NCBI RefSeq assembly: GCF_030373185.1
Contig: NZ_JAUCZH010000006.1
Coordinates: 62,001 to 126,000 of the forward strand
DNA: 64,000 nt
Source of the DNA: Tabrizicola sp.
GTDB taxonomy: Bacteria; Pseudomonadota; Alphaproteobacteria; Rhodobacterales; Rhodobacteraceae
Direction: 5' to 3'
Numbering within the stretch: position 1 is the stretch's first letter; each line of letters begins with the position of its first letter. Shown here piece by piece: positions 1 through 12,848 of this stretch. The notes beneath the pieces were generated by a model. The model ran no database searches and was not told the DNA's origin. It was given only the letters and a program-made list of their open reading frames with translations. The position numbers and the translations under genes were made by a program.

Positions 1-2
1 TT

Positions 3-263
3 GCCTTGCTGGCAGCACTGGCACCAACAATGCCGCTTCTGGCGCTGCCGTTCGCGGCCTGGCTGCTGATCTGCCTGCTGGCCGGGTTGCTGACGGCGGT
101 GCGCGGGCGCAAACTCGCATTTGCATTTTGTGGTCTTCCGGCGGCGGTCATGCAAATGGCGTGGTCAGTCGGATTCTGGGGCCAATTGTTACGTCTTGGC
201 CTGCGCGGCCCTGGCAGAAAGTCCGAAGCCCGCCAGCGGCCGCGGGCGATGACGGGAGAATGA
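3..263 (+). CDS. C-terminal end of an ExoA-like family 2 glycosyltransferase, cut by the window edge
   Basis: The frame is open to the left edge, so only about the last 86 residues are present and no start can be assigned. The fragment is strongly hydrophobic over its first two thirds and carries the tail motif AWSVGFWGQLLR, which I recognise from the membrane-anchoring C-terminus of succinoglycan-type ExoA glycosyltransferases. These add a sugar to the lipid-linked repeat unit at the cytoplasmic face. Its TGA overlaps the ATG of the next gene (ATGA), so the two are probably translationally coupled. The call rests on a short tail plus the neighbours; another GT2 subfamily is possible. Confidence 0.6.
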   Translation, partial: ALLAALAPTMPLLALPFAAWLLICLLAGLLTAVRGRKLAFAFCGLPAAVMQMAWSVGFWGQLLRLGLRGPGRKSEARQRPRAMTGE

Positions 264-2617
264 GAGTGAAGCGGATGCTTGTGCGGTTCAACGACAGCGA
301 CCCGGGAATGATCCCGGCGCCAGCCAGCGGGCCGGTCGCAGAGATGGGGCCGATGCGCAGCGGGCCTCAGATCGACATTGCCGCAATCCTCTCTGCGGTC
401 CGGCGCCAGAAGTATCTGGTGGGCGCTGCTGCTCTTGTCGGGCTGGCCCTGGGCGTGTTGCATGTGCTGACCGCGCCGCGGGTCTACATGGCCTCGACCG
501 AGGTAATGATCGGCGAGGACGTTGCCGGTGTGTCCAACGGATTCAACCGCCCTGCCACCGTGACCCAGAACGAGGTCATGCTTGAAAGCGCGCTTCGGGT
601 CTTGCAGTCGCAGACCCTTGCGCTGGCCGTCGTCAACAAACTCGACCTGCATGAACGTGAAGCTTTTGTCGCCCCCCCCAGATCCTTGCCCGGCGGAGCG
701 GTGCAGTTTCTGCGCGGACTGGCGGGGGCGGTTCTGTCCGGCGGTTCTGGCAGCGAAGCTGAGGCCGACCCTGAAGCGGCCGCGATGAAACAGCGCATCG
801 CAGCGGCTGAGAACCTTCGCGAAAACATTGATGTCCGCCGCGAAGGGCGCAGTTCGGTATTTCTGTTGCGCTATACCTCAAGCGACCCGGAACTGGTGGC
901 CGCAGTCGTGAATGCCTATGGTGAGGCTTTCGTCTCTGACCAGCTGATCGGCAATGTGGAGGCTTCGGCACGGGTGCTGGACTGGCTCCAGAACCGCCTG
1001 TTCGTGATCCAGGAGAATTCCACCCAAGCCGCCTTGCGGGCTGAGGAGTTCCGCGCGCGCAGCGGGCTGGAGACCATCGCCGGTGAACCGATCACCGTGC
1101 AGATGATCGCGCAGCTTAACGCCGACATCGCCGACGCGACTGTCCAACTGGCGCGGACGCGGGCGCTGAGCAGCATCTATGACGAGCTTCGCCAGCTTGA
1201 TCCGCTGCGCTTCATCGAGTCGGGCGCCGCCGGAGCCCGCGTTCCCGATGCCGAGTTTTCTGCCGGGCAAGAGCGTCTCATGGTCTTGCAGCAGCGGCTT
1301 GATGAGGTCGAACTGCGCTACGGCCCGGATCATTCTGAAGTCGTCCAGCTGCGCGAACGGATCGAGGCCGAGGGGCGGGCGCTGCAACGCGAGATGCAGC
1401 GGCTTTACGAGACAACCGCAAACGCTGTCCGCGCACTGGAATCCGAGATCAGCATCCTGCGCAACAGCATTTCCGAGATCTCGGCCGAAAATCTGGACCT
1501 TGCCACCTCGCGTGTCGAACTGCGCGCTTTGGAACGGCAGGCCGAGATTTTCGATGCGCTGAACGAGACCTACCTGCTTCGCCTGAAGGATCTTGAACAG
1601 ACCCAGACATTTCCGGTCACAAATGTGCGGGTGCTGTCCTTTGCAGACATTCCGGAAGATCCCATATCGCCGCGCAAGTCGCTGGCCCTTGGGTTCATGC
1701 TGTTGCTTGGGGCGGCTGCCGGTGGCGGGCTGGCGCTGTGGCGCGAGCGGATCCACAGGTTCATCCGCACCCGGGAGGATCTGCAGGAGGCCAGCGGGTT
1801 GCCCTTCCTCGGCTATATGCCGCTCTTGGCACCGGACGAGATCGAAGGGGCAACCGTTCCCGAGATCGCCGGAAAGAAGGCGGCGACTGCTGGTGAATTG
1901 CGCAAGGGGTTCAAGCATGATTTCGCGGCCCTGAGGCATCCCCGGTCCCAATTCACCGAGACGTTGCGAAATATCCGGGTCACCCTCGAAAGCTCGACAA
2001 AAGGTCAGACGGGCTATGTGCTTGGCGTGGTTTCGATCAGGCCGGGCGAAGGCAAGACGACAACAGCGGAAAACCTCGCGGCTCTTGCTGCGCTGGCAGG
2101 GCGGTCGGTGCTGTTGGTGGATGCGGATGTCCGGACATCTTCGCTAAGCCGAAGGTTGCGTCAGTCGATGGGGGTCGGCTTGCGCGAAGTGCTGATGGGG
2201 CGGGCGGATTGGGAGGCTTCGCTTCGCCGTGAAGTGAACACCGGCCTGCACTTCCTGCCGTCCACATTCTCCGCGAATGATTCCTCTGCCGGGGATCAGG
2301 TCGGTTCGCCAGAGTTCCGCAACCTGATCACCGAAGCGCGTCGACGCTATTCGCTGACGATCATCGACCTTGCCCCGCTGGCCCCGGTATCGGACGCACG
2401 CGCGCTTGTTCCGGTGCTGGACGGTCTGGTCATGGTCCTTGAATGGGGCAAGGTCTCTCGGGAAACACTGCGGGACATCCTGTCGGTGGACCATGTCCTT
2501 TACGAAAAGCTGATAGGCATTGCCCTGAACAAGGCTGACATGAGCGCTTTGGCCAAATACAGCCAAACCGACCCATTTGAAGGATATTATGATGCTCAGG
2601 GCGAGAAGGAGAACTGA
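260..2617 (+). CDS. exoP: ExoP-like polysaccharide co-polymerase fused to a tyrosine autokinase (BY-kinase)
   Basis: 785 residues from the ATG that overlaps the upstream stop; an upstream in-frame start would lie inside the preceding gene. Order: cytoplasmic N-terminus, TM1 (~52-70), periplasmic coiled-coil-rich Wzz region (~75-470), the PEDPISPRK proline motif (466-473), TM2 (~476-494), then a cytoplasmic kinase with Walker A GEGKTT (596-601), Walker A' VLLVDADVR (617-625) and Walker B LTIIDLAPL (699-707). The C-terminal tail has Tyr767, Tyr776 and Tyr777, a small tyrosine cluster of the kind autophosphorylated in this family. It should set chain length and coordinate polymerisation and export of the exopolysaccharide. 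Fusion of both modules in one chain is the usual arrangement in alphaproteobacterial ExoP. Confidence 0.9.
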   Translation: MRVKRMLVRFNDSDPGMIPAPASGPVAEMGPMRSGPQIDIAAILSAVRRQKYLVGAAALVGLALGVLHVLTAPRVYMASTEVMIGEDVAGVSNGFNRPATVTQNEVMLESALRVLQSQTLALAVVNKLDLHEREAFVAPPRSLPGGAVQFLRGLAGAVLSGGSGSEAEADPEAAAMKQRIAAAENLRENIDVRREGRSSVFLLRYTSSDPELVAAVVNAYGEAFVSDQLIGNVEASARVLDWLQNRLFVIQENSTQAALRAEEFRARSGLETIAGEPITVQMIAQLNADIADATVQLARTRALSSIYDELRQLDPLRFIESGAAGARVPDAEFSAGQERLMVLQQRLDEVELRYGPDHSEVVQLRERIEAEGRALQREMQRLYETTANAVRALESEISILRNSISEISAENLDLATSRVELRALERQAEIFDALNETYLLRLKDLEQTQTFPVTNVRVLSFADIPEDPISPRKSLALGFMLLLGAAAGGGLALWRERIHRFIRTREDLQEASGLPFLGYMPLLAPDEIEGATVPEIAGKKAATAGELRKGFKHDFAALRHPRSQFTETLRNIRVTLESSTKGQTGYVLGVVSIRPGEGKTTTAENLAALAALAGRSVLLVDADVRTSSLSRRLRQSMGVGLREVLMGRADWEASLRREVNTGLHFLPSTFSANDSSAGDQVGSPEFRNLITEARRRYSLTIIDLAPLAPVSDARALVPVLDGLVMVLEWGKVSRETLRDILSVDHVLYEKLIGIALNKADMSALAKYSQTDPFEGYYDAQGEKEN

Positions 2618-2618
2618 C

Positions 2619-3425
2619 GTGCATGGTGCCTTGAATCGCAATGGTCTGGCATGCCGGGCCAGAATTGCCGCTTGCGCCATGCTGCTTGCACTGGGCGCAA
2701 CCGGCAGCACGCAGGCCGAGCCGCTTGGGGAGTCATTCCTTGATGATTTCAACGAGTTTGATCTGGAGAAGTGGTACGTCTCCGATGGCTGGAGCAATGG
2801 CGCCCATCAAAATTGCCAATGGTCAAGCACCGCCGTACAGCACATGCCGGGACAGCTTGCGCTACGCTTTCTGGAGGATCCGACACCGACGCATGTTTAC
2901 CGCTGCGGTGAAATCCAGTCGCAACAGCGCTTTGGCTACGGCACCTATGAGGCGCGGATCAAGACCAACGATGGCAGCGGTCTCAACGCGGCCTTCTTCA
3001 CCTACATCGGACCTGTCCACGACGAACGCCACGACGAGATCGACTTCGAAATCCTCACGGCCAATCCTCGAGAGGTGACAGTCAACACATATGTGGACGG
3101 CAAGCCGCATCATGGGGCCGTCCACCCCATGCCGCGTCCGGCCAACGAGGAATTCCACACCTATTCCTTTGTCTGGGAACCCGGGCGGCTGAGCTGGTAT
3201 GTCGATGGCGAGCTGATCCACACTGTCGAGGACGCGATCCTGCCGGAACGGCCGCAAAAGATCTATCTGAGCATCTGGGGGACCGAGACCCTGAACGACT
3301 GGATGGGTCCATTCGTACATCCTGACCAGCCAAAGCAGATGGAAATCGACTGGGTCGCGTTCACAGGTCTTGGCGAAGCCTGCCGGTTTGACGGCTCGGT
3401 GCTTTGCAGGCTTGCGGGAAACTGA
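2619..3425 (+). CDS. Secreted GH16 endo-beta-glycanase (ExoK/ExsH-like)
   Basis: 268 residues from a GTG at 2619. This start was chosen because AAGGAG lies about 7 bases upstream, directly after the ExoP stop; an earlier in-frame start would overlap exoP. Residues ~10-33 form a signal peptide ending near TQA-EP. The GH16 catalytic motif HDEIDFEIL is present: Glu140 nucleophile, Asp142, Glu144 acid/base. GYGTYEARIK and VDGELIHTV match the jelly-roll lectin/glucanase fold. Family knowledge: ExoK-type enzymes cut nascent succinoglycan into lower-mass forms. Position between the co-polymerase and the polymerase points to the locus' own polymer as substrate; the linkage cut cannot be read from sequence. 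Confidence 0.88.
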   Translation: MHGALNRNGLACRARIAACAMLLALGATGSTQAEPLGESFLDDFNEFDLEKWYVSDGWSNGAHQNCQWSSTAVQHMPGQLALRFLEDPTPTHVYRCGEIQSQQRFGYGTYEARIKTNDGSGLNAAFFTYIGPVHDERHDEIDFEILTANPREVTVNTYVDGKPHHGAVHPMPRPANEEFHTYSFVWEPGRLSWYVDGELIHTVEDAILPERPQKIYLSIWGTETLNDWMGPFVHPDQPKQMEIDWVAFTGLGEACRFDGSVLCRLAGN

Positions 3426-3426
3426 C

Positions 3427-4686
3427 TTGAGCGGGGCGGTCCTTCATCGGAAAGGCTTTGCCGGCGCGGCAGGTGGCATTACCGTATGCCCGAACACGGT
3501 GCTGAGCGTGCTGATTCTGACGTCACTGGTCTTTGCCTCTTATCTGGGGCGGAACGGTGTGCTGGTCTTTCTGATCGCCGGGCTGGTGCTCTTGGCTCGG
3601 CGGCCGGATCGGTCCCGGGATGAGTTGCGCGATTACTGGTGGCTGTACCTGCTGCCCTTGTGGTGCGCCCTGAGCATGCTGTGGTCCGACCATCCCGACC
3701 TTTCCCTTCGGCATGGCACCCAGCTTGTAATAACCTTCGTCATCGCGGTGACGCTGGCAAGCCGCCTGTCGCCGCTTGTCTTCTTGCGGGTGCTCTTCCT
3801 GGCGCTTCTGGTTGCTGGCCTGGCAAGCCTCCTGATCGGCAATGTCCGGGAGGATGGGATCTGGATCGGCATCTTCGAAAGCAAGAACTACTACGCATTC
3901 ACCATGGTCGCGCTGGTTCTTTGTTCTTTCGCCCTGCTTGCCGATCGGATTCAGCCCCTTCTGTGGCGTCTTGCCGGGCTGTTCGGTGCGCTTCTGGGAT
4001 TGCCGCAGATCATGATGGCTGAATCGGCGGGTGCTGTCATTGCTTCTGTCTTCGTGCTGGCTGCGGCACTGGTGATGCTTCGTACGCATTCGCTTCCGCC
4101 AGCCCGCAGGACTGCCGGGCTGCTTAAGTTTTGCGGCGCGGCGTTGGCCATGTTGCTGGTGGCGCTTTATTTCGGCGATGCGATCCTTCAGTTTGTGGTG
4201 GAGGTGACCGGCAAGGATCCGTCACTGACAGGACGGACAGATCTGTGGGCCGCCGCCATCGGCGAAATTGGCCATGCGCCGCTGCTTGGCACCGGCTATC
4301 GGGCCTTCTGGGTGGAAGGAAACTCATTGGCCGAACAACTCTGGGCCGATTTCTACATTGCCTCGAAATCCGGCTTCAACTTCCACAATCTCTATCTGTC
4401 CAACGCGGTGGACATCGGCCTGATCGGCGTGTTCCTGCACCTGATGCTGTTGTTGCCGGCATTCCTGCTTTGCACGCGTTGGGTGATGCACGCCGGTGGG
4501 GCGCCGGCGCTGTTCTGCTTCATGGCTGTTGCCTTCGTGCTGGTTCTGTCCATGGTCGAGGTGCCGGTCTTTTTCGAATTCAATGCATTGACGCTTATGG
4601 TGCTGGCATCTCTGGTTTACGGGCTGCGGGCATCCCGCGAACTGCCGCAGCTTCAGCGGCATGGTGGCGCGCGGCGGCGCGTCTGA
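3427..4686 (+). CDS. Wzy/ExoQ-like exopolysaccharide polymerase (O-antigen ligase family)
   Basis: About 419 residues with roughly ten to eleven hydrophobic segments. The long periplasmic loop (~260-330) carries GRTDLW, GTGYRAFW and HNLYLS, the landmarks of the Wzy_C/O-antigen ligase family. It is expected to polymerise lipid-linked repeat units in the periplasm with the ExoP-like protein. The start is uncertain: a TTG at 3427 lies two bases after the GH16 stop behind a weak GGGAAA, while an ATG at 3370 would overlap GH16 by 56 bases. Ligase versus polymerase cannot be separated by sequence alone; the EPS context favours polymerase. Confidence 0.82.
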   Translation: MSGAVLHRKGFAGAAGGITVCPNTVLSVLILTSLVFASYLGRNGVLVFLIAGLVLLARRPDRSRDELRDYWWLYLLPLWCALSMLWSDHPDLSLRHGTQLVITFVIAVTLASRLSPLVFLRVLFLALLVAGLASLLIGNVREDGIWIGIFESKNYYAFTMVALVLCSFALLADRIQPLLWRLAGLFGALLGLPQIMMAESAGAVIASVFVLAAALVMLRTHSLPPARRTAGLLKFCGAALAMLLVALYFGDAILQFVVEVTGKDPSLTGRTDLWAAAIGEIGHAPLLGTGYRAFWVEGNSLAEQLWADFYIASKSGFNFHNLYLSNAVDIGLIGVFLHLMLLLPAFLLCTRWVMHAGGAPALFCFMAVAFVLVLSMVEVPVFFEFNALTLMVLASLVYGLRASRELPQLQRHGGARRRV

Positions 4687-4716: not shown

Positions 4717-5769
4717 TTGGAATTCAACAGTTTTGGCGACATGGAGGCAGATGTAGTCCGGCTCTTGCCACGCTTGCCGCGGGATCTGGATTTGATCGTG
4801 GCCATCCCACGCAGTGGTCTGGTGCCGGCCAGCATGATTGCGCTGCACCTCAACTTGCCGATCACCGACCTGCAAGGCCTTTACGAGGGGCGTTTCATGG
4901 CCTCGGGTCATCGCAAGGTCCGCAGCCGGACCAGTGATGCCGACGATGCCCCATTGAACGTGCTGATCGTTGACGACAGCGTGGGAACCGGCGCGCAATT
5001 GCGGGAAATCCGCACGGAATTGGGCCGGCGTGCCTTGCCGCACCGGATTTCCTTTGCGGTGGTCTACGCAACGCCGGTGGGCGCGCCCTTGGTGGACTAT
5101 TATAGCCGGAAGGTGCCAACGCTTCGGCATTTCTTTGCCTGGAACGTCATGCATCACGGTGCCATCGGAACATGGTGTGTAGATATCGACGGCGTCCTCT
5201 GCCGCGACTGCACGGAAGAAGAAGACGACGAAGGCAGCAAATATGCACGATTCCTGGAAACCGTTGAACCGCTGTTCCTGCCAACCACGCGCGTTGGCTG
5301 GCTGGTAACCGGTCGGCTTGAACGCCACCGAGCCGCGACCGAGGCATGGTTGCAGCGCCACAATGTCAGCTATGACCACCTTGTGATGCATCCGGCCAGT
5401 TCAAATGCCGAACGCAAGGCGAGCGGCGGTGGCGGAAGCTTCAAGGGGGCTTTCTATCGGACAGCGGAGGCCGGGTTGTTCATCGAAAGCAACGCCTGGG
5501 AGGCAGAGGTCATCGCAAGGATGTCTGGCAAGCATGTCGTGTGCATGGATACCCGGTCGATGGTAAAGCCGAACCCGGCGGCAGTTCTGCGCAAGATCAC
5601 CAGGAAGGGGCCGGGTGCCTATATCCGCTTTGTGCGCAGGATGATCGAAAATTTCGGGCAACAGCGCAAGAATGCCCGCTTCGTTGACCCGGCTGCGAAC
5701 TGTGACAAGCAACCCTCACAATCACCGCTGCAATCCCCCGATAGATCTGAGGCGCAACGCCATGTCTGA
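4717..5769 (+). CDS. Phosphoribosyltransferase-HAD phosphatase fusion in the EPS locus (candidate ribofuranose transferase)
   Basis: 350 residues from a TTG preceded by AGGAGG at the right distance. The N-terminal domain (~1-140) is a type I phosphoribosyltransferase: a PPi-loop-like AIPRSGLVPA (29-38) and the PRPP-binding loop VLIVDDSVGTG (82-92). The C-terminal domain (~150-300) is HAD-like: DIDGVLC (156-162, Asp156/Asp158), Thr198 in LVTGR, Lys243, and IESNAWEAE as the acidic region. The last ~45 residues are polar and basic. Family knowledge: bacterial ribofuranose can be installed on glycans in two steps, phosphoribosyl transfer from PRPP then 5-phosphate removal, by PRT and phosphatase modules. 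Context makes this the leading guess. Alternatives are nucleotide salvage or an unrelated regulatory role. Confidence 0.7.
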   Translation: MEFNSFGDMEADVVRLLPRLPRDLDLIVAIPRSGLVPASMIALHLNLPITDLQGLYEGRFMASGHRKVRSRTSDADDAPLNVLIVDDSVGTGAQLREIRTELGRRALPHRISFAVVYATPVGAPLVDYYSRKVPTLRHFFAWNVMHHGAIGTWCVDIDGVLCRDCTEEEDDEGSKYARFLETVEPLFLPTTRVGWLVTGRLERHRAATEAWLQRHNVSYDHLVMHPASSNAERKASGGGGSFKGAFYRTAEAGLFIESNAWEAEVIARMSGKHVVCMDTRSMVKPNPAAVLRKITRKGPGAYIRFVRRMIENFGQQRKNARFVDPAANCDKQPSQSPLQSPDRSEAQRHV

Positions 5770-5815: not shown

Positions 5816-6097
5816 TCAGCCTTCCCGGCCAGAGGACCGCTTCACCGCGCTTTTGCCAAGATCGGGTTGGCTGACAAGAAGGGCCTGAGCGCCGGCTTCC
5901 GGCCAGGTGGTCCGCTGCCCTTCACCCGGCGTCCGCGCCAGAACCAGCAGCAACGCGATGTAGAGAACCTGTGCAACCACAAGGGTAACGACACCCATCA
6001 CCAGCGCCTGCATCCAGGTCCCGCCAATCGCCAGGGTAGCCACGCCGCACAGGCCTGCCGATCCAAGCATTCCAGTAACAAAGGAAGTCAGCTTCAT
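5816..6097 (-). CDS. ExoX/SyrA-like small membrane protein, putative exopolysaccharide production repressor
   Basis: 93 residues from the ATG at 6097, with GAG about 7-9 bases upstream; upstream in-frame residues look non-coding. Two hydrophobic helices (~5-25 and ~29-54) enclose GGTWMQAL and QVLYIALLLVLAR, the layout of the ExoX/SyrA exopolysaccharide repressor family (small two-helix inner-membrane proteins of ~60-100 residues). Its tail (~60-93) is longer and more polar than in rhizobial ExoX. Family knowledge: ExoX lowers EPS output post-translationally by acting on the priming glycosyltransferase ExoY. It lies inside the EPS locus on the opposite strand, so it can be controlled separately. 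Confidence 0.66.
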   Translation of the reverse strand: MKLTSFVTGMLGSAGLCGVATLAIGGTWMQALVMGVVTLVVAQVLYIALLLVLARTPGEGQRTTWPEAGAQALLVSQPDLGKSAVKRSSGREG

Positions 6098-6200
6098 TGC
6101 CCACTCTCGATCTTGTCCGGCCATCCCGGGTCCGTCACCAGGATCAGTTTCAGTCAAGAACCTGACCATCCGGTTAACGGGTGGGCAAGTCTTTCCTTGA

Positions 6201-6226
6201 ATTTGCCCTGCAATTATGGCGCAAAT
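6201..6226. promoter_or_regulatory. Inverted repeat in the divergent exoX-like / glycosyltransferase promoter interval
   Basis: ATTTGC at 6201-6206 and GCAAAT at 6221-6226 form a perfect 6+6 inverted repeat separated by 14 bases. It sits in an unusually AT-rich patch of the 217-base interval between two divergent EPS genes. The spacing would suit a dimeric regulator. No regulator is identified, and a 6-base match can arise by chance. Confidence 0.3.
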
Positions 6227-6314
6227 GAGCCGAAATGCGCTTATCATCTTGCTCGGCAGGCAGATATTGGCCGGCTGGGCCTGCCCCATGAAGCCAGATC
6301 CCGGGGGGGTGGTC

Positions 6315-7259
6315 ATGCGTGATACGGTCATTCATGGCTCGACATCCGGGGTGCCGCTGGTAGCATTCGGGGCCTGCACCTTCCGGCGGCCGATACTCGC
6401 CCGTACGCTGAATAGCCTCGCCGCGCAGACGCTCGCTCTTCAGGGCAACTGCTGCACAATCATTGCCGACAACGATGATCAGCCGTCGGCCTTGCCGCTG
6501 GCGGAAACGGCCCGGGATGCCCATACGATGCCGTTGCATTATGTGCATGCGCCTGCGCGCAACATCTCGATCGCGCGAAATGCGCTGCTGGAAAAGGCAG
6601 TGGAACTTGGCGCTGATTTCCTTGCCATGATCGATGATGATGAAGTGGCTTCTCCCGACTGGGCAAGGGCGCTTCTGGAGCAGATCACCACCTCGGGTGC
6701 GGATGCGGTGCTGGGGCCGGTGATCGCCAACTATGGGCCGGATGCACCCGGCTGGATGCGCAATGCGAACTTTCATGATGTCGTGCCGGTCGTTCAGCCT
6801 GACGGCCGGATCCTTACCGGCTACACTGGCAATGTCATCCTGCGCCTGAACAGCCCGCACTTGCGCGACCGCCGTTTTGACCTTGCCTATGGGCGGACAG
6901 GTGGCGAGGACGATGCCTATTTTCGTGGTCTGGTGCGCAGCGGCGGTGCCATCGGCTATGCGCCCGCAGCCATCGCCCATGAGGACGTGCCGCCAGAGCG
7001 GGAACGGCTTTCGTTTCTTCTGCGCCGGAACTTCCGGGCCGGGCAGACGCATGGTCGGATCAATGCCCCCGACCAAGGCCTCGGGCGGGCAATCCTGTTC
7101 GCGAAGGCCGCGGCCAAGGTGACAGTGCTGACCGGGTGGGCCGGTCTTTCGGTGCCTTGGCCAGCCCGCCGGACCCGGGCGCTAATGCGGGCATCGCTGC
7201 ATGCCGGCGTGTGTTCGCAACTGCTTGGGGGGAAGATCCTTGAACTCTACCGATCCTGA
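6315..7259 (+). CDS. ExoM-like family 2 glycosyltransferase
   Basis: 314 residues. The start at ATG 6315 follows a G-rich Shine-Dalgarno and leaves the usual short lead before the nucleotide-binding strand VAFGACTFRRP (~16-26); ATG 6288 is an alternative. ADNDDQ (51-56) and the metal-binding MIDDDE (105-110) mark a GT-A fold. The later RTGGEDDAYF carries the acidic residues expected for the acceptor/catalytic base. The match is closest in layout to ExoM-type succinoglycan glucosyltransferases acting on the lipid-linked intermediate at the inner face of the membrane. Sugar donor and linkage are not predictable. The gene is followed 60 bases later by a deacetylase. Confidence 0.8.
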   Translation: MRDTVIHGSTSGVPLVAFGACTFRRPILARTLNSLAAQTLALQGNCCTIIADNDDQPSALPLAETARDAHTMPLHYVHAPARNISIARNALLEKAVELGADFLAMIDDDEVASPDWARALLEQITTSGADAVLGPVIANYGPDAPGWMRNANFHDVVPVVQPDGRILTGYTGNVILRLNSPHLRDRRFDLAYGRTGGEDDAYFRGLVRSGGAIGYAPAAIAHEDVPPERERLSFLLRRNFRAGQTHGRINAPDQGLGRAILFAKAAAKVTVLTGWAGLSVPWPARRTRALMRASLHAGVCSQLLGGKILELYRS

Positions 7260-7318: not shown

Positions 7319-8110
7319 GTGTTCCCGGCCGGTCTGACCATGGGTGCTGCAATGCGTAGGTCTTCCCTTGCCGGCCGTCTGTCCTTTGCGGCCGCCACAC
7401 GGATGGCATTTCGCCGGGTTCCGGTGCCGCCCGGGCGCGGTTTTCTGAGCCTCAGCTTCGATGATATCCCCCTGTCGGCCTGGACAGAAGGCGGACCCAT
7501 CCTGAGCCGGCACGGACTTCGGGCCTCCTACTATCTGAGCGGCGATCTTTGCGGAAAGGTCTTCGAGAACCGAGAGCAGTATCGACAAGACGATATCGCC
7601 GACATCATCGCCGCCGGACACGAGATCGGGTCGCACCTTTTTCACCATGTCAGCACACTGACCCTGAGCCCGAACCAGATGCGCAGGGAAATCGCGCTGA
7701 ACGATGCCTTCCTGAAGCAGGCCGTCGGTCAGGACTTCATGGCGCGCAGCTTTGCCTATCCCTACGGCGAGATTTCTGTTGCCGCAAAATGGCTGTGCAA
7801 CCGGCGCTTTCTGGCTTCGCGCAGCGTGATGCCCGGGCTGAACAGCAACGGCGCGGATGCAGGACAGCTCCGCATCTTGCCGATCGACAACATCTTTGCC
7901 GCCGAGACAGATATCGGTGCAGGCATAGCGGCTGCCGCGCGCGACGGAGCTTGGGCGATCCTGCTGGCACATGGGGTGGACAACACGGGCCATGCCTTCA
8001 GCTGCCCCCCGTCCCGCCTGGAAGCGGTGATCGAGCGCGCGATGGCCGCAGGCCTGGAGATATTGCCGGTCGCCGAGGTGATGGATCGGCTGACATCCTC
8101 CCGCAGCTAA
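7319..8110 (+). CDS. NodB-homology polysaccharide deacetylase
   Basis: 263 residues from a GTG with AGGGGG 6 bases upstream; later in-frame ATGs at residues 8 and 12 are possible. Motif 1 is SLSFDD (44-49), with Asp48 as base and Asp49 as metal ligand. Motif 2 is GSHLFHH (104-110), supplying His106 and His110, and the YPYGE loop corresponds to motif 3. This is the metal-dependent carbohydrate esterase 4 fold that removes N- or O-acetyl groups. No clear signal peptide is seen, although the basic N-terminus has a weakly hydrophobic stretch. Location at the end of the EPS run suggests it edits acetylation of the polymer or its lipid-linked precursor. Confidence 0.8.
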   Translation: MFPAGLTMGAAMRRSSLAGRLSFAAATRMAFRRVPVPPGRGFLSLSFDDIPLSAWTEGGPILSRHGLRASYYLSGDLCGKVFENREQYRQDDIADIIAAGHEIGSHLFHHVSTLTLSPNQMRREIALNDAFLKQAVGQDFMARSFAYPYGEISVAAKWLCNRRFLASRSVMPGLNSNGADAGQLRILPIDNIFAAETDIGAGIAAAARDGAWAILLAHGVDNTGHAFSCPPSRLEAVIERAMAAGLEILPVAEVMDRLTSSRS

Positions 8111-8271: not shown

Positions 8272-8928
8272 ATGGATTGGATCGACCGTTTTGCGGGGCT
8301 GAAGTCCTTGCCTGCCGAGGTGGCGCAAAGGCTTGTCGCTGGCAGCAAGGTCGTGCAATTGCCCGCCGGGGCGCGGGTGTTCGAGCCGGGGCAGCATGCC
8401 GACAACCTGCTTTTGCTGCTGTCCGGCACGGTGCGGGTGCAGCAACGGTCCGAAACCGGGCGCGAGGTGTTTCTCTACCGGGTGAACGCGGGCGAAAGCT
8501 GCGTGCTGACAACCGCCTGCATGCTGGCCGACGAAGACTATTCCGCCGAGGGCCTGACCGAGACCGAGGTCGAGGCGGTCGTGATCCCGCGCAAGTTGTT
8601 TGACGAACTGGCTGGCCGGTCCGATATCTTCCGCAGCTTCATTTTCCGCGCCTATTCACGCCGGATTGCGGATCTTTTCAGCCTGATTGATGATATCGTA
8701 TTCCAGCGGGTCGATGTAAGACTGGCGGCCCGTTTGTTGGATCTGGCACAGGATGGTGTGGTGCAGGCGACGCATCAGGTTCTGGCGGTGGAACTTGGCA
8801 CCGCGCGAGAGGTGATCTCGCGCACGCTGGGTGAATTCCAGCGCCGGGGATGGGTTGAACAGGCGCGCGGCGTGATCCGCATCCTTGATCGGGGCGGATT
8901 GGAGCGTCTGGCGCGCTCTGTGACCTAG
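8272..8928 (+). CDS. Crp/Fnr-family transcriptional regulator, likely controls the adjacent sulfur module
   Basis: 218 residues from an ATG behind GGGGGTGCGGAT. The N-terminal cyclic-nucleotide-like beta-barrel spans ~10-115, a dimerisation helix ~118-145, and the winged helix ~150-205 with recognition segment LGTAREVISRTLGEFQ. There is no N-terminal four-cysteine cluster, so it is not an Fe-S FNR. Instead there are two cysteines in the barrel, Cys77 and Cys83 (GESCVLTTACML). The gene leads directly into DUF2892, YeeE/YedE and persulfide dioxygenase genes on the same strand, so a thiol/persulfide-responsive role is attractive but inferred. The 161 bases upstream show no obvious operator. Confidence 0.85.
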   Translation: MDWIDRFAGLKSLPAEVAQRLVAGSKVVQLPAGARVFEPGQHADNLLLLLSGTVRVQQRSETGREVFLYRVNAGESCVLTTACMLADEDYSAEGLTETEVEAVVIPRKLFDELAGRSDIFRSFIFRAYSRRIADLFSLIDDIVFQRVDVRLAARLLDLAQDGVVQATHQVLAVELGTAREVISRTLGEFQRRGWVEQARGVIRILDRGGLERLARSVT

Positions 8929-8994
8929 TCACCGAGGAACCCGCGCCACTTGTGGCAAGGTCGCGACAGCGATGATTCTCGAAAGGAGAACGAC

Positions 8995-9198
8995 ATGACC
9001 AAGAATATGGGAACGATCGACCGGGGCCTGCGTGCGCTTGTGGGCGTGGTGCTGCTTGCCGGGGCCTTCCTTCTGGGCTGGTTCGCCGGCTGGACTTTCT
9101 GGGTGGCGGCGGCTGTCGGTGTAGTGATGTTGGCCACGGCGGCGATGGGCAATTGCCCGGCCTACAGCATCTTTGGAATCAAGACCTGCAAGACCTGA
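8995..9198 (+). CDS. DUF2892 small inner-membrane protein
   Basis: 67 residues from an ATG with AAAGGAG at ideal spacing. It starts TKNMGTIDRGLRA, has two transmembrane helices (~12-30 and ~32-50) and ends GNCPAYSIFGIKTCK, the characteristic DUF2892 pattern with two conserved cysteines. The same domain forms the membrane anchor of YgaP-type rhodanese proteins. Standalone versions recur next to YeeE/YedE and persulfide dioxygenase genes, as here. Its biochemical role is unknown; the paired cysteines suggest sulfane-sulfur handling at the membrane. Confidence 0.85.
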   Translation: MTKNMGTIDRGLRALVGVVLLAGAFLLGWFAGWTFWVAAAVGVVMLATAAMGNCPAYSIFGIKTCKT

Positions 9199-9205
9199 GG
9201 ACGGA

Positions 9206-9637
9206 ATGATAACTGAATTCACACCCCTGCAATCGCTGGGGGGAGGCGCGCTGATCGGCATTGCCGCAGTGCTGTTGATGGCATTTCATGGGCGCATCCT
9301 GGGGGCTACGGGCATCCTGGGTGGGCTTATGCGTTTGAACGACATGGCCGACTGGCGCCTGAAGGCGGCGCTTCTGGTCGGCATGGCGATGGGACCACTG
9401 GCCCTGCTGTGGGCCACCGGCACCGCACCCGCGATGGAGGTTCCGATCTCCAATCTGGCGGTGGTTCTTGGCGGGCTGATTGTGGGCGTGGGCGTCAGCT
9501 ACGGCGGCGGCTGCACGTCGGGGCATGGTGTTTGCGGCAATGCCCGCTTTTCGCGCCGGTCCATCGTGGCGACGATCAGCTTCATGATCACGTCCTTTGC
9601 CACCGTATTTGTCACCCGTCATCTGTTGGGGGCCTGA
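9206..9637 (+). CDS. YeeE/YedE-family transporter, first half
   Basis: 143 residues from ATG 9206, seven bases after the DUF2892 stop, with GAGGACGGA upstream. About four hydrophobic segments, with the signature GGGCTSGHGVCGNARFS near residues 93-110. The two cysteines in this loop correspond to those of the thiosulfate importer family YeeE/YedE (Sulf_transp). This protein is half the length of E. coli YeeE and is followed at once by the complementary half, so the pair probably forms one heterodimeric channel for thiosulfate or another small sulfur species. Confidence 0.85.
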   Translation: MITEFTPLQSLGGGALIGIAAVLLMAFHGRILGATGILGGLMRLNDMADWRLKAALLVGMAMGPLALLWATGTAPAMEVPISNLAVVLGGLIVGVGVSYGGGCTSGHGVCGNARFSRRSIVATISFMITSFATVFVTRHLLGA

Positions 9638-9638
9638 G

Positions 9639-10091
9639 ATGCGCATTCTGTCTGCACTTGTCATCGGCCTGATCTTTGGCGTCGGAATTGCCATCTCTGG
9701 CATGATGAACCCCGCCAAGGTGCTAAACTTCTTCGATCTTGCCCAGATCTGGGATGGAACCTGGGATCCAAGCCTTGCCTTCGTGATGGGCGGCGCGCTT
9801 GCCGTGACCATTCCGGGCTACCGGCTGGTCTTTGGCCGCCCGGCCCCGGTGCTGGAGAACCGGTTCCAGCTTCCCGATACGCGGGTGATCGACCGCCGCC
9901 TTGTGCTTGGCTCTGGCGTCTTCGGCATCGGCTGGGGGATTGCCGGGTTCTGCCCGGGCGGTGCGCTGCCCGCGCTTGGCACCGGCCGGATCGAGCCGTT
10001 CCTGTTCGTGGCCGCCTTGATCGGCGGCCTGCTGATCGCGCGTGTGGTCCAGGCCCGAAGCCTGCCTCCCCGCCCGAAACCTGCCACTTGA
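9639..10091 (+). CDS. YeeE/YedE-family transporter, second half (DUF6691)
   Basis: 150 residues from an ATG one base after the previous stop. Four to five transmembrane helices and the signature GFCPGGALPALGTG (~residues 105-118), which carries the second-half cysteine of the YeeE pore. Together with the preceding gene it reconstitutes a full YeeE-like sulfur transporter split over two chains, a common arrangement in proteobacterial sulfide and thiosulfate gene clusters. The tail is basic and proline-rich. Confidence 0.85.
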   Translation: MRILSALVIGLIFGVGIAISGMMNPAKVLNFFDLAQIWDGTWDPSLAFVMGGALAVTIPGYRLVFGRPAPVLENRFQLPDTRVIDRRLVLGSGVFGIGWGIAGFCPGGALPALGTGRIEPFLFVAALIGGLLIARVVQARSLPPRPKPAT

Positions 10092-10101
10092 GGAGGTTGT
10101 C

Positions 10102-10986
10102 ATGACCATCAAGACCAACTTGTCCATCAAGCCCGAAGTGAAGGGCTTCTTCGACCCCGCCACCAACACCATCAGCTATGTGGTGAAGGATCCGGGTTCT
10201 GACGCCTGCGCCATCGTCGACAGCGTGATGGACATCGACTATGCCGCCGGGCGGATCACTTATGACCACGCCGATGCGATGATCACCTATGTGAAAGAGC
10301 ATGGGCTGAAGCTGGAATGGCTGATCGAAACCCATGTCCACGCCGACCATCTGTCCGCTGCGCCCTATATCCAGCGCGAGTTGGGCGGCAAGATCGGGAT
10401 CGGGCGCAACATCACCGTTGTGCAGGACACCTTCGGCAAGATCTTCAATGAAGGCACCGAGTTTCAGCGCGACGGTTCTCAGTTCGACCGGCTGTTTGAT
10501 GACGGTGACACCTATACCGTCGGCACGATGGACTGTGTGGCAATGCACACCCCCGGCCATACGCCCGCCTGCATGACCCATGTGATGGGCGACGCGGCCT
10601 TCGTGGGCGATACGCTGTTCATGCCCGATGGCGGGTCAGCCCGGGCCGATTTCCCGGGCGGGGAGGCCGGGCAGCTTTATGACAGCATCCAGAAGGTGCT
10701 GGCGCTGCCCGACGAAATGCGCCTGTTCATGTGCCACGACTACGGCCCGAACGGCCGCGACATCAAATGGGAAACCACTGTGGCTGAAGAAAAAGCCCAC
10801 AACATCCATGTGGGTAGCGGCAAGACCCGTGACGAGTTCATCAAGTTCCGCACCGAACGCGACGCGCAACTCGACATGCCGAAACTCATCATCCCGTCGT
10901 TGCAGGTAAACATGCGCGCAGGCTCGCTTCCCGAACCTGACGAGTCCGGCAAACGTTTCCTCAAGGTGCCGGTCAACGGTCTTTGA
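10102..10986 (+). CDS. Persulfide dioxygenase (ETHE1/Blh-type MBL-fold protein)
   Basis: 294 residues from ATG 10102 with GAGGAGG upstream. The metallo-beta-lactamase fold shows HVHADH (78-83), His153 in HTPGHT, Asp170 in VGDTL and His212 in MCHDYGPNG. These include the His-Asp-His residues that bind mononuclear iron in ETHE1-like persulfide dioxygenases. The reaction is glutathione persulfide + O2 to GSH + sulfite. No rhodanese domain is fused. Ten bases from the preceding transporter half, it forms the oxidative step of the module; the next gene, a SulP transporter, could handle the resulting oxyanion. Confidence 0.9.
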   Translation: MTIKTNLSIKPEVKGFFDPATNTISYVVKDPGSDACAIVDSVMDIDYAAGRITYDHADAMITYVKEHGLKLEWLIETHVHADHLSAAPYIQRELGGKIGIGRNITVVQDTFGKIFNEGTEFQRDGSQFDRLFDDGDTYTVGTMDCVAMHTPGHTPACMTHVMGDAAFVGDTLFMPDGGSARADFPGGEAGQLYDSIQKVLALPDEMRLFMCHDYGPNGRDIKWETTVAEEKAHNIHVGSGKTRDEFIKFRTERDAQLDMPKLIIPSLQVNMRAGSLPEPDESGKRFLKVPVNGL

Positions 10987-11000
10987 GTCCACGGCTTGAC

Positions 11001-11058
11001 GCTTTCTTGCGGTCGCTTGTCGCAACGTTCTGTCAGCGATGACTGACCGCAAGGAAGC
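11001..11058 (+). other. Long-arm hairpin between the persulfide dioxygenase and SulP genes
   Basis: Arms of 14 bases at 11001-11014 and 11045-11058 pair with one mismatch (GCTTTCTTGCGGTC against GACCGCAAGGAAGC) around a 30-base loop. There is no U-tract, so it is not a canonical intrinsic terminator. It begins 14 bases after the dioxygenase stop and ends 32 bases before the SulP start, so it could act as an mRNA-processing site, an attenuator or a protein-binding site. Confidence 0.5.
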
Positions 11059-11090
11059 GAAAGGCATCCTGTAGAATACAAGGCTTGACC

Positions 11091-12848
11091 ATGTCCCCGC
11101 TTCTGAAGCGGCTTCCGGTGCTTGACTGGGGCCGCCGCTACAATCGTGCCACCCTTGGCGCCGACCTGATGGCCGCGCTGATCGTCACCATCATGTTGGT
11201 GCCGCAGTCCCTGGCCTATGCGCTTCTGGCGGGCTTGCCACCCGAGGCGGGGATCTATGCCTCGATCCTGCCGATCGTGCTTTACGCGATCTTCGGCACC
11301 AGCCGCGTGCTGGCCGTGGGTCCGGTGGCCGTGGTGTCCCTGATGACCGCCGCCGCCGTGGGGCAGGTGGCCGAGGCGGGAACGGCGGGCTATGCGATGG
11401 CGGCACTGACGCTGGCGCTTTTGTCTGGTGGCATGCTGTTTGCCATGGGGGTGCTGAAGCTGGGGTTTCTTGCAAATTTCCTCAGCCATCCGGTGATTGC
11501 CGGGTTCATCACTGCCTCTGGCATCCTGATCGCTGCGGGGCAGGTGCGTCACATCATGGGCGTGCAGGGCGGGGGGGAAACCTTGCCGGAAATCCTGCAT
11601 GGGCTTTGGTTGCATGTCGCGGACACCAATCTTGCCACGCTGGCCATCGGGGCAGGGGCCGTGGTCTTTCTGTTCTGGGTGCGCAAGGGCATGAAGCCTA
11701 CGCTTCTGGCGCTTGGCACCCCCAAGCGCGCCGCCGACATTCTGACCAAGGCCGGCCCGGTCTTTGCCGTCGCCGCCACCACCGCGCTGGTCTGGGGGCT
11801 GGGGCTGGCCGACAAGGGCGTGCGTATCGTGGGCGAAGTGCCGCAAGGCCTGCCGCCCTTCACCGTGCCGGACCTGTCCTTGTCGCTGGTGTCCGCGCTT
11901 TTGATCCCGGCTGCGCTGATCTCGATCATCGGTTTTGTCGAAAGCGTGTCGGTTGCCCAGACCCTTGCCGCGCGCAAGCGCCAGCGGATCGACCCGGATC
12001 AGGAACTGTTGGGCCTTGGCGCCGCCAATATGGGTGCAGCCTTTACCGGCGGTCTGCCGGTCACCGGGGGTTTTGCGCGGTCAGTCGTCAACGCCGACGC
12101 AGGGGCTGAAACCCCGGCAGCAGGGGCCTTTACCGCCGTGGGCCTTGCCTTTGCCGCCATCGCACTGACGCCGCTTCTGTATTTTCTGCCGCAAGCCACG
12201 CTTGCCGCCACCATCATCGTCGCCGTCCTTGGCCTTGTGGACCTTGGCATCCTGCGCCGCACATGGGCCTATTCACGCCGCGACTTCGCCGCCGTTGCTG
12301 TCACGATCCTTGTCACCCTTGGCCTTGGGATCGAGACCGGGGTTTCTGTTGGTGTGGCACTTTCGGTCCTTCTCCACCTTCTCAACACCGCCCAGCCGCA
12401 TGTGGCCGAAGTTGGTCTTGTTCCGGGGTCCGAACACTTCCGCAATATCCACCGCCATGCGGTGCAGACCTATCCCCATGTCCTGACACTGCGGATCGAT
12501 GAAAGCCTTTACTTCGCCAACGCCCGTTTCCTTGAGACGATGATCCTTGACCGCATCTCCCGGTCCCCCGACCTGCGAGAGGTGATCCTGATGTGTTCGG
12601 CCGTCAACTCCATCGACTATTCGGCGCTGGAAACGCTGGAGGCGCTGCACAACGAACTGGCCGCGCGCAACATCCGCCTGCACCTGTCCGAGGTGAAAGG
12701 CCCGGTGATGGACCGCTTGCAGCAGACCCACTTCCTGCAACATCTCAGCGGCAAGGTATTCAAGTCACAGTATGATGCCTTCCACGCCCTTGCCAAAGCC
12801 GATGGTGCCGAGCGTGGCAATGGGGCTGGTGCGGGGACGGATGCCTGA
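11091..12848 (+). CDS. SulP-family anion transporter with C-terminal STAS domain
   Basis: 585 residues from ATG 11091 (AAGG about 8 bases upstream); a TTG six bases earlier is an alternative. The membrane domain (~20-400) includes the SulP signature DLMAALIVTIMLVPQSLAYA with the following LAGLPPEAGIYAS, and GFVESVSVAQTLA in the second half. The C-terminal ~130 residues form a STAS domain (VILMCSAVNSIDYSALETL). The family carries sulfate, bicarbonate or other anions. The position after the persulfide dioxygenase suggests sulfate or sulfite traffic tied to sulfide oxidation. Substrate and direction are inferred. Confidence 0.88.
   Translation: MSPLLKRLPVLDWGRRYNRATLGADLMAALIVTIMLVPQSLAYALLAGLPPEAGIYASILPIVLYAIFGTSRVLAVGPVAVVSLMTAAAVGQVAEAGTAGYAMAALTLALLSGGMLFAMGVLKLGFLANFLSHPVIAGFITASGILIAAGQVRHIMGVQGGGETLPEILHGLWLHVADTNLATLAIGAGAVVFLFWVRKGMKPTLLALGTPKRAADILTKAGPVFAVAATTALVWGLGLADKGVRIVGEVPQGLPPFTVPDLSLSLVSALLIPAALISIIGFVESVSVAQTLAARKRQRIDPDQELLGLGAANMGAAFTGGLPVTGGFARSVVNADAGAETPAAGAFTAVGLAFAAIALTPLLYFLPQATLAATIIVAVLGLVDLGILRRTWAYSRRDFAAVAVTILVTLGLGIETGVSVGVALSVLLHLLNTAQPHVAEVGLVPGSEHFRNIHRHAVQTYPHVLTLRIDESLYFANARFLETMILDRISRSPDLREVILMCSAVNSIDYSALETLEALHNELAARNIRLHLSEVKGPVMDRLQQTHFLQHLSGKVFKSQYDAFHALAKADGAERGNGAGAGTDA

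Follow-up and report, generated by a model that had tools for sequence, protein, structure and literature searches.

The 64,000-nucleotide stretch of Tabrizicola sp. DNA analysed here (the window), contig positions 62001-126000, carries, within a surface-polysaccharide locus, a gene whose product (P0001) joins a phosphoribosyltransferase (PRT) domain to a HAD phosphatase domain. This PRT-HAD enzyme probably attaches ribose to the slime polymer. More specifically, the protein is likely to be a soluble bifunctional ribofuranosyltransferase of the exopolysaccharide (EPS) repeat unit, working by direct transfer from phosphoribosyl pyrophosphate (PRPP). This reading draws on the domains, the fold matches of a structural model, residue conservation, gene neighbourhoods, co-occurrence with an oxidoreductase gene, and the published EPS structure of Mesorhizobium japonicum strain R7A. 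The gene and its parts are as follows.

4717..5769, plus strand: PRT-HAD protein P0001, 350 amino acids, TTG start (open reading frame (ORF), Pfam PF00156, AlphaFold2 model and fold matches)
4717..5157, plus strand: PRT domain, XGPRT-like fold (P0001 residues 1-147)
4960..4992, plus strand: PRPP loop VLIVDDSVGTG (P0001 residues 82-92)
5164..5571, plus strand: HAD phosphatase domain (residues 150-285; motif I DIDGVLC, T198, K243, E257)

That a single chain carries both a PRPP transferase and a HAD phosphatase is seen in the Pfam PRT match, the two folds of the model and the motif residues. An AlphaFold2 model built from a 45-row alignment (pLDDT 87.7) contains both folds in a soluble alpha/beta protein; an earlier model from 3 sequences (pLDDT 42.5) was discarded in its favour. 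The HAD part matches polynucleotide 3'-phosphatases in both profile and fold searches, and is the better conserved half, with 50.7% identity between P0001 and a Mesorhizobium copy (L066) against 37.0% for the PRT part.

Active-site residues were compared between 26 PRT-HAD rows (some of them close relatives, and including three odd copies) and 24 Gpt-like rows, which are all but one of 25 single-domain paralogues retrieved from the window's genome and Rhodobacterales. The PRPP acidic pair is kept in the PRT-HAD rows (Asp or Glu in 24/26, Asp in 26/26), as are the R and S of PRSG in 24/26, and the HAD residues are kept as well: D156 and D158 of motif I in 25 rows each, the motif II residue T198 in 24, and the motif III residue K243 and motif IV acid E257 in all 26. 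A different picture emerges at two other positions, where the Gpt loop Asp (column 90) and the Gpt Lys (column 119) are present in 24/24 Gpt rows and in only 1/26 and 0/26 PRT-HAD rows, respectively. These columns are presumably base contacts, equivalent to D92 and K115 of E. coli XGPRT. Because the PRPP aspartates and HAD residues are kept and these base-contact positions are lost, PRPP use and phosphatase chemistry look intact in the PRT-HAD family, while base recognition looks gone.

An earlier, sequence-only reading had placed a PRPP-loop protein fused to a HAD phosphatase in an EPS locus, and the ORF, Pfam matches, model and exo-gene matches bear this out. Homologues of ExoY, ExoA, ExoL, ExoM, ExoK, ExoP, ExoF and ExoQ occur together here, with 28.7-54% identity to the exo cluster of M. 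japonicum MAFF303099; the locus is a surface-polysaccharide locus of the succinoglycan-type exo kind. From the preceding region (L005) into the window, the gene run reads ExoY-, ExoF-, Wzx-, ExoO-like, ExoL-, ExoA-, ExoP-, ExoK-, ExoQ-like, PRT-HAD, ExoM-like glycosyltransferase (family GT2) and deacetylase. Identity to the MAFF303099 cluster is 54% for ExoY, 53% for ExoA, 49% for ExoK, 45% for ExoM and 42% for ExoL; PRT-HAD residues 1-286 are 42% identical to the MAFF303099 copy, and the remaining matches of the locus fall at 25-32%. The gap between the end of the polymerase gene and the PRT-HAD gene is 30 nucleotides. The neighbours within the window are:

1..263 (end approximate), plus strand: 3' end of an ExoA-like GT2 gene that starts before the window (L005:17175); 53% to the MAFF303099 ExoA position
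128..2617, plus strand: ExoP/Wzc-like chain-length tyrosine kinase (Wzz, GNVR; eps_transp_fam below its cut-off)
2577..3425, plus strand: ExoK-like GH16 endoglycanase (NCBIfam ExoK 342.3 bits, just under the cut-off of 350; 49% to MAFF303099 ExoK)
3370..4686, plus strand: Wzy/ExoQ-like polymerase (Wzy_C; 29% to the MAFF303099 ExoQ position)
5816..6331, minus strand: small ORF, weakly ExoX-like (NCBIfam ExoX E 0.051, below cut-off)
6216..7259, plus strand: ExoM-like GT2 glycosyltransferase (PF00535; 45% to the MAFF303099 ExoM position)
7319..8110, plus strand: polysaccharide deacetylase, HfsH-like (PF01522; NF050820 below cut-off)

The true start of the ExoP/Wzc-like gene probably lies further into its frame.

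What might the PRT-HAD enzyme contribute to such a polymer? Relatives that bear on this are in a set of genomes from one genus, which could be recognised as Mesorhizobium because plasmids of Mesorhizobium sp. B2-1-1 and B2-1-8 gave 100% matches. One genome of this set is M. japonicum MAFF303099, as judged from a 2801-bp match of 100% to pMLa at identical coordinates, and here the PRT-HAD gene (C1:4199019-4200038, minus strand) lies inside the exo cluster, as does a gene for a GMC-family oxidoreductase (C1:4195941-4197380, plus strand). The map runs exoQ, F, Y, X, U, K, UDP-glucose dehydrogenase, GMC, small protein, a family GT4 glycosyltransferase (GT4) and PRT-HAD, followed by exoT, exoL, A, M, O, N and P; the ORFs were named by eye after the published order exoQFYXUKTLAMONP (available text of PMC8227245), with exoL placed by sequence matching. 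According to the accessible part of PMC7392887, the low-molecular-mass EPS of R7A is (OAc)beta-D-RibfA-(1->4)-alpha-D-GlcpA-(1->4)-beta-D-Glcp plus five more residues, RibfA being riburonic acid and GlcpA (GlcA) glucuronic acid. Both R7A and MAFF303099 are M. japonicum and have the exo cluster in common (PMC8227245, same portion). The EPS structure used is that of one strain, R7A, and the cluster mapped that of the other, MAFF303099.

From their roles in succinoglycan synthesis we take ExoY, A, L, M, O and U to be the transferases for the first six sugars, which leaves GT4 and PRT-HAD for GlcA and RibfA. On this count, every one of the eight sugars in the R7A repeat unit has a candidate transferase in the MAFF303099 cluster, with the UDP-glucose dehydrogenase and GMC as candidates for the two oxidations that GlcA and RibfA would need. 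Moreover, the beta anomer of the R7A RibfA fits inversion of alpha-PRPP. The GMC protein has a GMC_oxred_C match and weak similarity to pyranose oxidase. Five copies of the small protein have a common N-terminal RR pair, and neither Pfam nor NCBIfam gave a match for the copy in L066; this twin-arginine-like protein may carry GMC piggy-back to the periplasm. In the open literature, to the extent that its text was available and with the primary R7A EPS papers outside the scope, no gene was found to be credited with the riburonic acid in the EPS of M. loti. The accessible parts of PMC6144797 and PMC8227245 name mlr5265/mlr5266, which may be among these cluster genes, as EPS mutants. Elsewhere in the MAFF303099 exo cluster (L085/L086, about 4184192-4191685), ABC transporter-like, asparagine synthase-like and nucleotidyltransferase-like ORFs were seen by eye, perhaps a peptide-product island.

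The proposal of the sequence-only reading, that this is a ribofuranosyltransferase, gains support as a hypothesis from the position of PRT-HAD in the MAFF303099 cluster together with the terminal beta-D-RibfA of R7A, from gene co-occurrence, and from the genes found at its position in two genomes that lack it. Among 81 Mesorhizobium genomes, PRT-HAD occurs in 48 and GMC in 46; 45 have both, 3 only PRT-HAD, 1 only GMC and 32 neither (Fisher p 5.6e-18, kinship ignored). All 45 pairs are on the same contig, 1197-3882 bp apart. As controls, exoA was found in 76 of the 81 genomes and GT4 in 66, and the skew persists within each group (both, PRT-HAD only, GMC only and neither: 45/3/1/27 with exoA and 44/3/1/18 with GT4). 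Of the genomes with PRT-HAD only (G712, G730 and G1021), the site was inspected in the first two (L067 and L071), where a 29-residue remnant of the small twin-arginine-like protein indicates that the GMC/small-protein pair was probably lost. In the sole GMC-only genome, G1081, the pair lies in an apparently transposase-rich stretch, with the other module genes absent by eye. Two genomes (G1033 and G1040) have another GT4, a different Wzx and a polysaccharide pyruvyltransferase in place of PRT-HAD, between the shared GT4 and exoL; their replacement GT4s are 79% alike. A further genome with neither PRT-HAD nor GMC (G1034) has a DDE transposase ORF at the site. In Rhodobacterales, GMC at >60% identity is found in 2/292 genomes, both of them among the at least six with full-length PRT-HAD relatives (the window's genome included); two further genomes have GMC at 39-40% identity and lack PRT-HAD.

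In the mechanism that we propose, we infer every enzymatic step, the acceptor, the order of events and the periplasmic site of oxidation. The PRT domain would bind PRPP and take a hydroxyl of a lipid-linked oligosaccharide instead of a purine, producing a beta-linked ribofuranose-5-phosphate, and the HAD domain would then strip the 5-phosphate. The acceptor envisaged for the window locus is a succinoglycan-like chain made by the ExoY-, ExoA-, ExoL-, ExoM- and ExoO-like enzymes. Queries with the Mesorhizobium UDP-glucose dehydrogenase, GMC, small protein and GT4 had no match in the window, L005 or L006, and there is no GMC match at E <= 1e-100 in the window's genome; because no close GMC gene was found, the ribofuranose of this polymer would stay unoxidised. 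In the Mesorhizobium cluster, alpha-GlcA would be provided by the neighbouring UDP-glucose dehydrogenase and attached by GT4, and PRT-HAD would add ribofuranose onto it. GMC, exported by the twin-arginine-like protein, would then oxidise the ribofuranose at C5, turning it into the riburonic acid seen in R7A EPS.

At wider levels, full-length PRT-HAD relatives occur in 5/385 genomes at the class level and 10/398 at the phylum level (E <= 1e-20, with the window's genome counted in each). Among 72,556 plasmid records, 41 match P0001, of which 22 cover at least 80% of the query; the relatives are annotated as 'phosphoribosyltransferase family protein'. Their neighbours include lipopolysaccharide-biosynthesis (Wzx-like), glycosyltransferase and nucleotide-sugar dehydrogenase genes in Paracoccus, Wzx-like and glycosyltransferase genes in Bosea, and Wzx-like, glycosyltransferase, acyltransferase and GMC genes in Rhodobacter sp. 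CZR27. The setting is different on plasmid pRetIE4803c of Rhizobium etli IE4803 (L043), where PRT-HAD adjoins a peptidase C14 (caspase family) gene, with a large glycosyltransferase gene nearby. Upstream in the same region are genes for UbiA, GtrA, an FAD oxidoreductase and SDR, and downstream there are type VI secretion genes; genome G889 (L068) has a similar gene order by eye. Second, degenerate PRT-HAD copies lie within the same loci at L039:8738-9622 and L044:14608-15579; in these the pyrophosphate loop PGGG replaces PRSG and the first PRPP aspartate is gone, with the HAD motifs retained.

A tblastn search with P0001 in INPHARED phages found nothing. The idea that phages lack PRT-HAD was nevertheless rejected, since a search of IMG/VR contigs with the A3 profile turned up 147 relatives, of which 80 were kept, forming 32 clusters at 60%. 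By a phmmer count, glycosyltransferase-like ORFs lie near the viral copies in 4/32 clusters; Pfam searches with hand-picked neighbours revealed families beyond the reach of the phmmer queries. Nine clusters were examined in this way with one to four neighbours each (L090, L091, L092, L093, L100, L106, L119, L135 and L163), and a glycosyltransferase family above cut-off is beside or fused to PRT-HAD in five of them (L090, L091, L092, L100 and L119). One viral PRT-HAD (L092) is fused to a group 1 glycosyltransferase domain, and other viral copies adjoin GT2, GT8, GT17, rhamnosyl O-methyltransferase or pyruvyltransferase genes. The L163 copy has a pyruvyltransferase neighbour and L135 only a methyltransferase, and no glycosyltransferase, methyltransferase or pyruvyltransferase match was found for the one neighbour tested in L093 or the two in L106. 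Several viral copies across L090-L169 were seen near methyltransferases and unusual glycosyltransferases.

Could the enzyme instead use PRPP to make a soluble or lipid-linked ribose donor, such as polyprenyl-phosphate ribose, for another transferase? Such a route has been published for alpha-ribofuranose in Citrobacter (available text of PMC11127046), and the UbiA and GtrA genes of the R. etli plasmid region, along with its FAD oxidoreductase and SDR genes, would be in keeping with it. However, P0001 has no UbiA match in Pfam or NCBIfam and is modelled as a soluble protein, and no UbiA, GtrA or GT-C match was found among the window-locus proteins scanned (the MAFF303099 ORFs being named by eye only). 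Considering also that the R7A linkage is beta, as expected from direct inversion, we regard a donor-making role as unlikely. Transfer of ribose onto nucleic acid or protein is highly unlikely: the Pnkp-like fold of the HAD domain and the viral relatives, some of them by apparent virion genes (in L106, with a scaffold match below its cut-off), would suit such a target, whereas the bacterial copies are in polysaccharide loci and several phage loci have glycosyltransferase or sugar-methyltransferase neighbours.

Slightly less probable again is a purine or xanthine salvage enzyme with a fused phosphatase, located in the EPS locus by chance. The top sequence and fold matches of the PRT part are indeed the purine-salvage enzymes Gpt/XGPRT. 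Yet the window's genome has a separate single-domain Gpt-like ORF (L002), 291/292 Rhodobacterales genomes have some match to P0001, mainly of the single-domain Gpt-like kind among the matches listed, both base-contact residues are lost, and the glycan context recurs among relatives. The sequence-only reading had itself named a best structural match to nucleotide-salvage phosphoribosyltransferases as grounds for refutation. By fold, that is literally the match obtained; we do not count it as refuting because the Gpt base-contact residues are gone and the context is glycan synthesis. Least probable of all is that the protein regulates EPS synthesis, or serves it as a moonlighting sensor of PRPP, with a PRT fold as in PyrR and PurR and a vestigial HAD domain. 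The HAD catalytic residues are kept in 24 to 26 of 26 relatives, and a gene that co-occurs with an oxidoreductase and is replaced by a GT4 is more like that of an enzyme.

The Gpt likeness nonetheless weighs against ribofuranosyl transfer by the window's protein, and so do several other observations. In the PRPP phosphate loop, the final Thr (column 94) is present in 24/24 Gpt rows and 1/26 PRT-HAD rows, so that PRPP binding may be altered. In a 57-row tree, where the bacterial rows require two changes of label, the window protein forms a long branch with L003 and L004, whose nearest grouping is with L062 and L064a rather than with the Mesorhizobium clade. Being outside that clade, it can receive a function from there only across about 42% identity. 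Taken together, the viral and tree results indicate that the family is wider than EPS and that the Mesorhizobium evidence reaches the window only by homology and locus type. The Mesorhizobium association is itself subject to the kinship caveat, GT4 tracks PRT-HAD loosely (19 GT4-positive genomes lack PRT-HAD), and one genome (G1027) has PRT-HAD and GMC with no GT4 match. In Sinorhizobium fredii SMH12, the same three genes for GMC, the small protein and PRT-HAD follow one another; yet, according to the available text of PMC8227245, S. meliloti IFO13336 was the sole source of EPS in which riburonic acid had been known before R7A. In that strain the residue is alpha, which the proposed inverting enzyme would not explain. 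Finally, one bacterial copy (L064) lies among metabolic genes with no clear glycan neighbour by eye, and no match to a glycosyltransferase came from the few neighbours tested for the viral copies L106 and L096. The L064 region (L064:9104-10081) holds a tandem PRT-HAD pair outside any obvious polysaccharide locus, the first copy of which lacks the HAD motif.

How does the proposed ribofuranosyltransferase compare with known systems? The bipartite gPRT-PRP enzymes (K. pneumoniae O4/O7, the CriT/CrpP modules of Hib Bcs3, C. jejuni Cj1432 and E. coli KrkA) have the same one-chain arrangement of PRPP transferase and HAD phosphatase and the same surface-glycan locus setting, and addition of beta-ribofuranose is what we propose for PRT-HAD. 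The better conservation of the HAD part agrees with the use of the PRP domain as the marker of the gPRT-PRP family (PMC11127046, in the portion available). PRT-HAD differs in having a compact XGPRT-type PRT with a contiguous PRPP DD motif, where CriT has separate E818 and D680 (accessible text of PMC10299916). No Bcs3, T. composti or other solved ribofuranosyltransferase was among the 60 of 86 profile matches listed, nor among the 50 listed for each fold search, which does not exclude homology. The best account is that PRT-HAD works like the gPRT-PRP enzymes, with a PRT half resembling a salvage enzyme; the likeness is one of working and not of demonstrated family membership. Gpt (xanthine-guanine phosphoribosyltransferase) has the same PRT fold and PRPP aspartates, but PRT-HAD lacks its Asp and Lys columns and has an added HAD domain and a polysaccharide context. 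Unlike the Pnkp-type HAD 3'-phosphatases, PRT-HAD is fused to a PRT, with no kinase or nucleic-acid repair context seen. The Citrobacter polyprenyl phosphoribose pathway (UbiA-like PPPRS, MATE flippase and GT136) also brings PRPP-derived ribofuranose into glycans; it differs in its membrane enzyme, lipid donor and alpha linkages (PMC11127046, same portion). The ExoY-, F-, A-, L-, M-, K-, P- and Q-like genes of the window locus match succinoglycan-type exo clusters, from which the locus differs in carrying PRT-HAD; the Mesorhizobium cluster has in addition to PRT-HAD the four genes that went unmatched in the window.

Beyond the EPS locus, at window positions 8272-12848, a Crp/Fnr-like regulator, two YeeE/YedE-like membrane proteins, a metallo-beta-lactamase fold protein and a SulP-like permease lie in a row by eye, perhaps a sulfur oxidation island.

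A broader scenario, to which we give an even chance, is that glycan ribosylation was taken on by a phosphoribosyltransferase of the purine-salvage type, in an event separate from the origin of the known gPRTs. This enzyme would be an exchangeable cassette of exo clusters, making with GMC and the twin-arginine-like partner the riburonic acid that is the end sugar of the Mesorhizobium EPS which the Lotus receptor EPR3 senses, and would be widespread in phages, ribosylating virion or host glycans. The Mesorhizobium PRT-HAD relatives are candidates for making riburonic acid in the EPS that Lotus senses, and two genes of a known cluster, PRT-HAD and GMC, can now be tested in a laboratory symbiont. 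If true, the proposal would add a kind of transferase to those known, hidden at present under the name 'phosphoribosyltransferase family protein', and would provide a marker by which polymers that carry ribose could be recognised in bacteria and phages.
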